A DNA stretch of 64,000 nucleotides from Pseudobdellovibrionaceae bacterium (lineage in GTDB: Bacteria > Bdellovibrionota > Bdellovibrionia > Bdellovibrionales > Bdellovibrionaceae): NCBI GenBank assembly GCA_019637875.1, contig JAHBUW010000009.1, positions 62,001 to 126,000 on the forward strand, given 5' to 3'. Under the pieces are notes generated by a model. The model searched no databases. It saw only the letters and a list, made by a program, of their open reading frames with translations, and was not told where the DNA came from. The position numbers were made by a program, and so were the translations under genes. This document shows, in pieces, positions 24,471 to 28,250 of the stretch (its first letter is position 1; the number at the start of each line of letters is the position of its first letter).

Positions 24471-24579
24471 GATGATCTCCGTGTGGCACGGAATTCACCA
24501 CAAACTCGCCCTAATTGGCAGTAACGAATCCAGGCCACCTGCTGAAGAAAGCAGCCTGAGAGTGATAACGCACAAGCGA

Positions 24580-24642
24580 AAGGTAGCTGCTACCTTCCGG
24601 AAAGTAGCAGGTACCTTCTGGAAGGTAGCGCGTACCCTCAGT
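24580..24642. repeat. Tandem 21-bp palindromic repeat, family B copy 1
   Basis: Three 21-bp units lie head to tail (24580-24600, 24601-24621, 24622-24642, the last partly degenerate). Each unit begins with a 17-bp near-palindrome of the form AARGTAGCnGSTACYTT and ends in a 4-bp spacer (CCGG, CTGG). The first unit is close to the reverse complement of the second, so a 38-bp hairpin can form. The third unit runs into the stop codon of the gene at 24638. A second set stands at 48827-48889. Confidence 0.85.
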
Positions 24643-25639
24643 TCCCCAGATTGAAGAGGACCAGCTTGTACCAGGGTTCGTAGGTTTGGTTGATGCGTAA
24701 GGATTGGGTATCGAGCACCGGTTTTTTGCCGCTCATTTTGGTTGAGAAGTCGATTTTGACGCGGAAGGAGTTCACCAGCGACAGTTTTGATGAGCCCGTC
24801 GGGCAGACGTGGGTGAGGTTTCCGGTGATGCGGTACTCGCCGGCGCCGTCGTTTTGCGCACCCTTTTCCCAGTGGACGTTGTGGTAGACCACGCCGAGCG
24901 GCGGCTTTTTGCCGAACTGAAGATCGGGGAAAGGCAGAATCGGGATCGGCAGCGTGAAGACCGGGCAATGCACCGAGGCGCGGAAGGTTTTCGACAGGTC
25001 CCACATCTCGTCGCCGACGGTCAGCAGGATTTGCGGGAAGCTTTCGACCTCGTCGCCCGAGACGATGTTCGCTTCGACATCTTGGCTCCAGGGCAAGACC
25101 GGCGTCGATTGGATGCGCGCCTGCAGAACGTTGCCGACCTTTACGCCCAGCAGATCCAGCTCTAAGTGCGAAGCTTTCGAGACGTGATGCCCCAGCTCGT
25201 GAATCAAGATCGCCGTCGCTTGCGACAAGCTGATGGGCTCAAGCTTATTCATTTTGTTGAACGTATAGAGCATGTCGATGTTCACGTAGATCGGGTGACC
25301 GACCGTGGAGCCCGTACGTGCGACTTTGGGTTCACCGTCGATGATGAAAGTTCCCGGCGCGCGTTTTTCTGAGGCGAAAACGATCAAGTCGACGTTTTGT
25401 TTCGCTTTCGGCAGCGTCCGCAAAATCTCGCTCAGGATGCCGCGTTCTTTTTCGGAGAGATTGCAACGAACGCCGTCCAGGCAAAGTTTCGAATAGAAAT
25501 CCAAGTTGGCCAGCGCTTGCAGGATATTCTTTTCGGCGAGGCCCCCGCCGTTACCGACGTCATCCCCCCCGAACCGCCACGCCTGTGCGGTGGACATCAT
25601 CGCGAACAAAACACAGACTCCCAGAAAGATCTTTTTCAT
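24638..25639 (-). CDS. Secreted protein with HExxH zinc-protease-like motif
   Basis: A signal peptide (residues 1-20) precedes a 313-residue mature protein. HELGHH at about residues 149-154 in a hydrophobic helix (SLSQATAILIHELGHHVSKA) is the zinc and catalytic motif of gluzincin/metzincin-like peptidases; a third ligand is not obvious. The N-terminal DDVGNGGG stretch and the C-terminal strand-rich half are not recognised. Four cysteines are present (two near the N-terminus, two further on). It follows the TIGR02147 regulator by 2 bp, so the regulator and this protein form a two-gene unit. Confidence 0.82.
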   Translation of the reverse strand: MKKIFLGVCVLFAMMSTAQAWRFGGDDVGNGGGLAEKNILQALANLDFYSKLCLDGVRCNLSEKERGILSEILRTLPKAKQNVDLIVFASEKRAPGTFIIDGEPKVARTGSTVGHPIYVNIDMLYTFNKMNKLEPISLSQATAILIHELGHHVSKASHLELDLLGVKVGNVLQARIQSTPVLPWSQDVEANIVSGDEVESFPQILLTVGDEMWDLSKTFRASVHCPVFTLPIPILPFPDLQFGKKPPLGVVYHNVHWEKGAQNDGAGEYRITGNLTHVCPTGSSKLSLVNSFRVKIDFSTKMSGKKPVLDTQSLRINQTYEPWYKLVLFNLGN

Positions 25640-25641
25640 CT

Positions 25642-26430
25642 TCAGTTCCCCTTCGGTGTTTGGCCCTTCGGGCGGCTATTCGTTCGACTCTCGGTGATTG
25701 GAAACAGCTGCATGGCGAGAACAAACACGTCTTGCGGGTCTTCGCAATCGCCGATGAGTTTTGAAATACGGTGGCGCGTCCGCTGTAGAATTTTTTTCGC
25801 TTCCGACAGCTTGGCGGGATCGGCCGGCATCGTGATCGCGGTGATATCCCGCGCTTCGACCGGTAAATTCAGCAGAGCGTGCTCGGCCCGCCGAAGAAGT
25901 CCGGCGTGGAATCGACGGATGGCCGCCGAGGGCACATCGGTCGAGGTGACAAAGGGACGCGCGGTCCGCTCCATCCGTCCCTCGACATCTTTGATTAATC
26001 CGAACTTCATTAAACGGTCAAAAGACTCACGCGCCTCGCCCAAATTCAAACCCAGACGCTCCGCGATCCACTGGGGATCGGCGACGTTCGCTTTCAAACG
26101 AGCGAGGTTCAAAATGGCGACGGAAACCCAATCCGAGATCAGCTGAAACTCGTCCTCGCTGAGGACGGCATGGGATTTTGTGACATCCAAAGAGGACGGC
26201 GCGCGCGTCGCTTTCCCGCCAAAGCTCGCGGCATCCAAAGGCGAAAGCCCCAGCCGGGTCACGATGGAGTTGCGGTTCTTGGGCGAAAGTTCACGTTTAC
26301 GATTCAGATATTGGGAAAGGGCCGCCGGGCTGACCCCCACGTCCCGCGCAAAGGCCCGCAAACTGTACGACGGATTTCGCGTACGGCGCTCGGTCATCTC
26401 TTGAATCAGTAAAAAGCGGCCATCCTTCAT
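25642..26430 (-). CDS. TIGR02147 family regulator
   Basis: The 262-residue protein matches the TIGR02147 (DUF4423) family, known from Fibrobacter and Bdellovibrio. The N-terminus is a lambda-repressor-like HTH (NPSYSLRAFARDVGVSPAALSQYLNRKRELS, about 19-49). The middle and end carry the family's marks: a winged-helix-like segment (ERLGLNLGEARESFDRLMKFGLI), a helical stretch (FHAGLLRRAEHALLNLPVEARDITAITM), and the closing pattern DPQDVFVLAMQLFPIT. No family member I know of has a clear ligand. The gene is divergent from the secreted-protein gene at 26617, and two palindromes lie between them. It sits 2 bp before the metallopeptidase-like gene. Confidence 0.9.
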   Translation of the reverse strand: MKDGRFLLIQEMTERRTRNPSYSLRAFARDVGVSPAALSQYLNRKRELSPKNRNSIVTRLGLSPLDAASFGGKATRAPSSLDVTKSHAVLSEDEFQLISDWVSVAILNLARLKANVADPQWIAERLGLNLGEARESFDRLMKFGLIKDVEGRMERTARPFVTSTDVPSAAIRRFHAGLLRRAEHALLNLPVEARDITAITMPADPAKLSEAKKILQRTRHRISKLIGDCEDPQDVFVLAMQLFPITESRTNSRPKGQTPKGN

Positions 26431-26470
26431 ATATGGAGGCTCGGTCTAATCGCCATGAAGCAAAGGCGTC

Positions 26471-26495
26471 AACTCGAAACAATGTGTTTCGAGTT
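26471..26495. promoter_or_regulatory. Perfect palindromic operator candidate 1
   Basis: AACTCGAAACA-N3-TGTTTCGAGTT has perfect 11-bp arms. It lies 41 bp upstream of the TIGR02147 start on one side and 122 bp before the secreted-protein start on the other. A weaker copy follows at 26502-26522. The shared core is TCGAAACA-N3-TGTTTCGA. Confidence 0.7.
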
Positions 26496-26501
26496 TTAAG
26501 G

Positions 26502-26522
26502 TTCGAAACACCTTGTTTCGAG
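26502..26522. promoter_or_regulatory. Palindromic operator candidate 2
   Basis: TTCGAAACA-N3-TGTTTCGAG repeats the same core as the site at 26471. The two centres are 29 bp apart, close to three helical turns, so two bound dimers could face the same side. Confidence 0.65.
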
Positions 26523-26616
26523 AGGGGCTTGGCAAAACCTGCACGGCTGGCCTATTTCCAGCCCCGGGAATTGAAACAACAAACGGACTTCGGTCCCAAA
26601 AAACAGGAGATTCTAG

Positions 26617-27105
26617 ATGAAAAAGTTTATCGTCGCGGCCGCTCTCTCGCTGATCGGTTTTGCAGCTCAAGCTGGTGAAGCACGTCCCGCATGGGTTTGC
26701 GCTTTGGGCTTCGAAGGTCAAGCACGTGGCGTGCAGATCCTCGTCGGTTCGTTCAAATCGGTCGCTTACGGCGAAATCCGTTGCACCGACCTGATCGGTG
26801 GCGAATACGTTCAGCCCGTGAAAGTGACGATCGGCGCTGAGCCCGTCGCCCTCAACCTGGCGATTGGTACTTTCGACTTCGTCGGTGGCGCAGCGGAAAT
26901 CAGCCTGTTCAACAACCAACCTTCGGACCTCCTGGGCAACTATCTGGTCGTCCAAGGTCGCGCGGCCTTCGCACTGGGTGCGGGCGCGTTCACCGCGGTT
27001 CGCGTCAACATCCCCAACATCGCTCTGAACATCTCGGTCGAAGTGATGCGCGGTCTGGGTGCTCAAGTCGGCATCAACAAAATGCGTATCGAAGCGATCA
27101 ACTAA
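26617..27105 (+). CDS. Small secreted protein, probably abundant
   Basis: A signal peptide (residues 1-19, ending AQA) is followed by a 143-residue mature protein rich in Gly, Ala and Val with alternating strands (VQILVGSFKSVAYGEIRCTDL, VKVTIGAEPVALNLAIGTFDFVGG, VRVNIPNIALNISVEVMRGLGAQVGINKM), consistent with a small beta fold. Two Cys are present. I do not recognise the family. AGGAG is 7 nt before the ATG and a strong terminator follows. It is divergent from the TIGR02147 gene and shares its palindromes, so it is probably a target. Confidence 0.85.
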   Translation: MKKFIVAAALSLIGFAAQAGEARPAWVCALGFEGQARGVQILVGSFKSVAYGEIRCTDLIGGEYVQPVKVTIGAEPVALNLAIGTFDFVGGAAEISLFNNQPSDLLGNYLVVQGRAAFALGAGAFTAVRVNIPNIALNISVEVMRGLGAQVGINKMRIEAIN

Positions 27106-27251: not shown

Positions 27252-28250
27252 ATGAATATCTCGAAGGGTCAGTTTTCTGCATCGCTTACCGTGGTCGCCA
27301 TCTCGGCTTTCGCGGCGGGCCTGATCGGCGCCAACATTCTTGAAGGCATCGAAGAGGCCCAACAGCAAACCGAGATTCATCTGGGCCAAACGGATTTGAT
27401 CAATCCGCTACTGGCGTGCCGACCGCCGGAAGACGTTCCCTTCTATCCGCAGGATCGAATCGAAACCCATATCCGCAAGCTGATCGAAGAACTCAAGACG
27501 CGCCACCAACTTCAAGAGATGTCCCTGGTGTTCCGCGACCTCAACAATGGTCCGAGCTTCAGCATCAACCCCCATGCGAAGTATTCGGGCGCGAGCCTTC
27601 TGAAAGTCCCGATCATGATCGGCTATCTGCGCAAAGCCGAGGAAAGTCCCGATATCCTTCTAGAGAAAATCGTCTACGATCCCGCCAAACACGATGCCAC
27701 GAACCACGTGCAGCTGGTGCAGCCGCCCGCCCCGCTACTTCCGGGCGAGGACTACACGACCGACGAGCTGATGGCCCGGATGATCACCCAGTCGGACAAC
27801 TCGGCGACGATCATGCTCGGGACCCAACATCCCGAAGCCGACGTCATCCCGACGCTGCAAGCGATGGGTGTCACTTTGAGCTTCGTCGGCGATGACGCCT
27901 ATATCTCCGTGCGTGACTACGCGAGTATTTTTCGAATCTTGTTCAACGCCACGTTCCTGACCCGGAAGTGGTCGAATGCCTCGCTCCATCTGTTGAGCCA
28001 GTCTTTGTTCAAGGACGGATTGGCCGCCGGCGTGCCCCCCGACATCAAGGTCGCTCACAAATTCGGTGAGCGCAGCGTGGACACCGACGTTCAGCAGTTC
28101 CACGACTGCGGAATCATTTATAAACCCAAACAACCCTACTTGCTTTGCGTGATGTCGCGCGGGTCGAACCTACAAAATCTGATTAAGTCGGTCGCCGAAG
28201 TTTCGGCGGCCGTTTATCAAGAGGTCTCGGCTCCGGCGGAACGCAATTAG
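27252..28250 (+). CDS. Class A beta-lactamase-like serine hydrolase
   Basis: An N-terminal membrane anchor or signal (about 8-28) precedes a beta-lactamase/transpeptidase fold. The three motifs of the superfamily are present: S115-L-L-K118 (SxxK), S181-D-N183 (SDN), and K270-F-G272 in place of the usual KTG. The glutamate of the class A omega loop is not clearly identified. It may be a true beta-lactamase, a penicillin-binding-like enzyme or a related peptidase. In predatory bacteria this fold could also act on prey or own peptidoglycan, but this is not shown. The 3' end overlaps the convergent lipoprotein gene by 4 bp. Confidence 0.85.
   Translation: MNISKGQFSASLTVVAISAFAAGLIGANILEGIEEAQQQTEIHLGQTDLINPLLACRPPEDVPFYPQDRIETHIRKLIEELKTRHQLQEMSLVFRDLNNGPSFSINPHAKYSGASLLKVPIMIGYLRKAEESPDILLEKIVYDPAKHDATNHVQLVQPPAPLLPGEDYTTDELMARMITQSDNSATIMLGTQHPEADVIPTLQAMGVTLSFVGDDAYISVRDYASIFRILFNATFLTRKWSNASLHLLSQSLFKDGLAAGVPPDIKVAHKFGERSVDTDVQQFHDCGIIYKPKQPYLLCVMSRGSNLQNLIKSVAEVSAAVYQEVSAPAERN

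Follow-up and report, generated by a model that had tools for sequence, protein, structure and literature searches.

A conserved pair of putative operators and a probable self-controlled divergent switch at a TIGR02147/DUF4423 regulator gene of a Pseudobdellovibrionaceae bacterium

To examine a regulator gene of the TIGR02147 family in its context, we analysed a 64,000-nucleotide stretch of a Pseudobdellovibrionaceae genome (contig JAHBUW010000009.1, positions 62,001 to 126,000; hereafter the window). A sequence-only reading of this DNA had placed two palindromes between the regulator gene on the minus strand and a divergent small secreted-protein gene on the plus strand, with an HExxH protein gene 2 bp past the regulator. 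The coordinates confirm both points, and the layout is that of a divergon, with putative operators lying between divergent genes of which the regulator is one. The features are as follows.

24638..25639, minus strand: secreted HExxH protein of 333 aa, putative metallopeptidase (HELGHH, signal-like N-terminus), 2 bp downstream of the regulator
25642..26430, minus strand: TIGR02147/DUF4423 regulator of 262 aa (Pfam DUF4423, NCBIfam TIGR02147, AlphaFold2 model)
26444..26472, minus strand: possible regulator promoter, predicted by eye, TTGACG (26467-26472), 17 bp, TTAGAC (26444-26449)
26471..26495, no strand: putative proximal operator on the regulator side, 11-bp arms AACTCGAAACA/TGTTTCGAGTT with a 3-bp spacer (ATG), conserved in orthologues
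26503..26521, no strand: putative distal operator, TCGAAACA-CCT-TGTTTCGA, kept in orthologues, four of which have just a half-site here
26529..26558, plus strand: possible divergent-gene promoter, predicted by eye, TTGGCA (26529-26534), 18 bp, TATTTC (26553-26558)
26617..27105, plus strand: divergent small secreted protein of 162 aa, DUF992-like (signal-like N-terminus; Pfam DUF992 borderline)

The arms of the proximal palindrome are perfect over 11 bp, and its 19-bp core (26474-26492) reads TCGAAACA-N3-TGTTTCGA, the same core as that of the distal site. The palindrome centres fall at 26483 and 26512, 29 bp apart, as the sequence-only reading had described them. Within the window this pattern was matched at ≤3 mismatches in two places only, each with 0 mismatches, against 0.64 matches in the shuffled window. 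A search for the core upstream of other genes, which the same reading had proposed, found no palindrome match at ≤2 mismatches in the 3.98 Mb genome besides the two window sites, which rules out a genome-wide regulon; the motif is private to the promoter region of the regulator.

The regulator passes the curated thresholds of both families well, matching Pfam DUF4423 (PF14394) at E 3.2e-39 with 134.8 bits (cut-off 30) and the NCBIfam paralog model TIGR02147 ('Fsuc_second') with 95.2 bits (cut-off 50), and is one of 10 DUF4423 proteins in this genome. The profile match and an AlphaFold2 model (pLDDT 85) place an XRE-type HTH (~residues 1-70) ahead of the DUF4423 domain; the HTH_3 match itself (residues 22-63) reached 22.8 bits, slightly under its cut-off of 23. 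In the model the HTH is followed by a predicted ArsR/MarR-like winged helix (~84-162), whose best Z of 8.7 is near the chance level for common folds, and then by a C-terminal helical part. A Foldseek search with the model gave no match at E ≤0.001, and solved structures matched by sequence covered separate HTH or winged-helix stretches only. By sequence and structure comparison the HTH resembles HigA/XRE repressor and CI-type domains. The likeness to HigA, phage CI-type repressors and restriction-modification controller proteins (C.AhdI) lies in the N-terminal HTH (HigA, CI-type) and in the paired palindromes at a promoter that, as predicted here, is self-controlled. Unlike those systems, the window regulator adds the predicted winged helix and the helical part after its HTH, and its sites stand between two divergent promoters rather than atop one.

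The divergent protein matched Pfam DUF992 with 23.3 bits (cut-off 22.7) over its C-terminal 58 residues only. DUF992-like genes also occur off the unit (G000:C18:2326-2802, and unlinked copies elsewhere, some of them in genomes without the HExxH partner). Beyond the divergent gene lies a gene for a beta-lactamase-like secreted or anchored protein (27252-28250, plus strand; Pfam Beta-lactamase2, E 2.5e-32); with the class A beta-lactamase model its score stays far under the cut-off.

When the regulator was used as query against 66 genomes of the same family, orthologues of ~36-60% identity were found, and a three-gene unit of the same order (divergent DUF992-like gene, regulator, HExxH gene) was present in 16 loci/genomes, the window included, with a divergent orthologue of the 162-aa gene in every one. 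The sequence-only reading had staked its proposal on the palindromes being conserved near orthologues, and this held: the operator pair was kept in 16/16 units with centre spacings of 27-29 bp, the distal member being a half-site only in four (L020, L025, L028 and L035). Five more units from a named-genome search (L119, L120, L123, L128 and L130) carry the pair with spacings in the same range. Core wording shifts symmetrically among orthologues (TCGAAACA, TCGGAACA, TCGGGACA), the pattern that recognition of a palindrome by a dimer would produce; such two-sided changes were counted in 20 cells versus 4.9 in shuffles, and 0 of 500 shuffles, which do not remove shared descent, reached 20. Sites, spacing, gene order, conservation and symmetric covariation are in this way established by sequence comparison. 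Two variants were seen besides: a rearranged unit (L041, G043:C1:206813-210325) in which the regulator fragment starts within DUF4423, without the HTH, and the HExxH gene is inverted; and a second TIGR02147-like gene of another HTH subtype beside the three-gene unit (L127:1284-1646, with similar ORFs in L031 and L033).

Mere shared descent of a functionless intergenic region could also conserve such sites, since the 16 family units could all be orthologues of one another and the more similar two proteins are overall, the more similar are their operators. In the reduced set (16 units), however, the sites are 65-72% identical whereas the 40-bp flanks (30-34%) and the gap between sites (42%) are near-unrelated; together with the two-sided symmetric changes, this makes descent alone a highly improbable explanation. 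It is equally hard to credit that the inverted repeats act as RNA or DNA structure rather than as protein operators. A terminator-like stem was scored at 26484-26511, but it arises from one operator pairing with the other, the palindromes have no other copy in the genome, and each 19-bp palindrome has been conserved on its own, changing symmetrically and at a fixed spacing, between divergent genes. A terminator or repeat element was ruled out by the single genomic locus, the origin of the stem and the symmetric changes.

To complement this analysis, the pattern TCGRRACA-N3-TGTYYCGA was scanned blindly across all 66 genomes with genes disregarded. This returned 13 palindromes versus 1 for a reversed control pattern (~1 chance match being expected as estimated from base frequencies), and 12 of the 13 lay upstream of a TIGR02147-type regulator. 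One match in another genus (L055) precedes a solo 164-aa HTH-DUF4423 gene (L055:1015-1509) that lacks both partner genes and yet has its own TCGAAACA palindrome, and this links the motif with the regulator, not with the neighbours. The thirteenth match (L057, G026:C2:622837-622855; TCGAGACA) precedes the gene of a 130-aa protein that looks exported and has no adjoining regulator, and may be due to chance. These data bear on whether the palindromes could instead be the site of another, global regulator. Binding by the adjacent TIGR02147 protein is a prediction, and paralogues that read other wordings could cross-bind; against this, the genome holds no further site at ≤2 mismatches and the blind matches sit at TIGR02147 promoters, in one case at a solo regulator gene. 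We consider a global regulator unlikely.

The HExxH partner had no Pfam match, and no solved structure was matched by its sequence. A model of the protein (pLDDT 87) gave no Foldseek match at E ≤0.001, and in VIA-align comparisons residues 28-175 showed an aspzincin-like fold (Z 9.1-9.6 to AsaP1, GfMEP and deuterolysin over 118-132 residues); among the matches listed for this half, aspzincins were the only ones barring a single broad-range match. The partner resembles the M35 aspzincins in this predicted fold and in its HExxH motif, and differs from them in its identity (~10%), its extra C-terminal beta domain and its uncertain third zinc ligand, H158 and D162 being conserved, along with HExxH, among the HExxH partners. 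We found no GTxDxxYG, the aspzincin motif whose Asp serves as the third ligand, and therefore claim no membership; the modelled partner resembles an aspzincin by predicted fold and is a putative peptidase. Between its gene and that of an S9 peptidase lies a short GGTAGC/GGTACC-rich repeat segment (24575-24640), perhaps hairpin-forming.

A search from the partner side, in which GTDB species genomes were scanned with the HExxH alignment alone, found 26 loci in Bdellovibrionaceae, Bdellovibrionales, Pseudobdellovibrio, Bdellovibrio, Halobacteriovoraceae, Bacteriovoracaceae, Oligoflexia and others, overlapping in part with the genomes of the family search. In 22 of these, even where identity falls to 25-30%, the gene directly upstream and in the same direction is of TIGR02147 type; the four others (L133, L136, L139 and L142) depart from this arrangement. 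Three loci (L126, L129 and L132) hold the regulator-HExxH pair with no clear palindrome.

We then considered paralogues, adding 60 further loci to the regulator comparison. Among 86 regulators with a YSxRxFA-type HTH, 75 had a downstream GNGG-like partner by a broad motif set picked after the data were inspected, and in 64 it lay ≤40 bp away; the start of many GNGG-type partners overlaps the regulator stop. With a strict GN[GA]G at residues 10-60, an adjacent partner was found for 45 of 99 regulators versus 0 of 191 other ORFs of the same loci. A simple signal-peptide heuristic classes 78 of the 81 partners as exported-looking. A hydrophobic-HE motif is present in 68 of the 81, in most cases around residue 150; it reads HExxH in the window's group and mostly HExxY or similar elsewhere. 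Profile comparison of the HExxH partner with other GNGG proteins aligned the signal and GNGG segment only (E 1.5e-7), while two non-HExxH GNGG groups aligned mutually (E 7.4e-16); the shared layout suggests that the HExxH partner is homologous to the other GNGG proteins. The link to a predicted exported protein is a property of most YSxRxFA-type regulators, beyond the window locus. PlcR-PapR and Rap-Phr are pairs of a regulator and an exported product within one operon. As there, the gene of a cytoplasmic HTH regulator directly precedes one for an exported product in the window unit; unlike there, the products are proteins of 200-480 aa that bear a zincin-like motif, rather than short signal peptides.

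Palindromes of the form CA-N3-TG were enriched upstream of 87 paralogues, at 25 loci versus 0.4 in shuffles and 1 in coding controls, with outer arms that differ from the window wording. Nine of the 25 loci are not part of the three-gene module; examples are TTGGAGCACTTTGCTCCAA at L075, ATGCTACACTTTGTAGCAA at L105 and, in the genome of the window itself, CTGTAACACTTTGTTACAA at L005. Similar sites occur in other families of the phylum (for example TTGGAACACTTTGTTCCAA at L173). One paralogue group has a different spacing, TGTTTCA-N5-TGAAACA, and in most of the paralogues, distant ones above all, no clear CA-N3-TG site is seen. In one group of paralogues (L036-L040, L043, L072, L078 and L082) the regulator and the GNGG protein are separated by a lipoprotein-like gene, and the half-site TGAAACA occurs at another spacing. 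The recognition helix varies with operator wording, whole-protein similarity correlating more strongly in a Mantel test that is confounded by shared descent, so no recognition code is claimed. A residue-to-base code (LSQ with A4, LSD/LSE with G4) fits within the module and was rejected on its failure in paralogues L073, L081 and L094.

Taken together, these comparisons suggest that the locus is probably a self-controlled, local divergent switch, in which two regulator dimers would bind between the genes and control both promoters, including the regulator's own. The XRE-type HTH would read an 8-bp half-site, with one dimer on each 19-bp palindrome, so that two neighbouring dimers, 28-29 bp apart, would occupy the stretch between the promoters. 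Since the outer operator edges adjoin -35-like boxes, the bound pair would control both directions, namely the operon of regulator and HExxH gene (autoregulation) and the divergent secreted gene. The DUF4423 part would sense a signal. From sequence comparison we infer regulator binding, the dimers, the promoter positions, the sign of control and a ligand. The conserved pair, the private site, the regulator bias of the blind scan, the CA-N3-TG enrichment in paralogues and the HigA-like HTH all support such a local switch; the distal half-sites, the palindrome-less loci L126, L129 and L132, the siteless paralogues and the weak, unscored promoter boxes count against it.

With regard to these boxes, a consensus promoter scanner found no promoter in the window and scored neither of the box pairs picked by eye. 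By eye, a -35-like box adjoining the proximal operator recurs in orthologues a few bp past the site (TTGAC, CTTGCG), several have a TATAA-like box right before the regulator start codon, and the divergent side of many shows TAGACA-N17-TATCTC-like boxes in the corresponding place. The position of the sites upstream of the promoter cores, together with the weak promoter boxes, slightly favours activation over repression as the sign of control. Plain autorepression, with the same operator and protein but with bound dimers that would close both promoters until released by a signal, differs only in sign and is a serious contender that we place a little below even chance. XRE-type regulators are often repressors, which counts against activation; the HTH is nearest to HigA-type repressor/antitoxin domains, the extended arms of the proximal site touch the TTGACG box in the window, and autorepression is the usual mode of divergently placed local regulators. 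In most orthologues, however, both sites fall clear of the stretch from -10 to -35 and the boxes are weak, a combination that suits activation better.

The proposed local switch belongs to a family whose targets had been called undefined in the sequence-only reading, in agreement with the open-access literature: no paper there names TIGR02147 (absence from the open-access papers alone being no proof), and the sole mention of DUF4423 is one line of a proteomics table, which lists Bd3700 as one of the proteins that become more abundant during growth in prey (PMC12546842). Nothing relevant was found in the literature on operators, DUF992, GNGG or deuterolysin in Bdellovibrio. For the TIGR02147/DUF4423 family we found no operator, target or ligand described; the operator, its geometry and the recurring exported partner are what we infer here. 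The general principle is ordinary, and the predicted operator and partner rule appear to be new.

DUF4423 regulators occur in 254 of 291 sampled genomes of the phylum, often in at least 10 copies. It is possible, although we hold this as a doubtful extension, that they form private switches throughout the Bdellovibrionota, each with its own palindrome wording on a CA-N3-TG core and its own exported zincin-like GNGG/HE protein, the DUF4423 part reading prey- or envelope-derived signals so that exported enzymes would be deployed singly. The predicted operator, its fixed geometry and the recurring exported partner make the DUF4423 family directly testable and, if the partner rule is true, these regulators would mark out, in Bdellovibrio and related bacteria, a large and so far unstudied group of exported, protease-like proteins.
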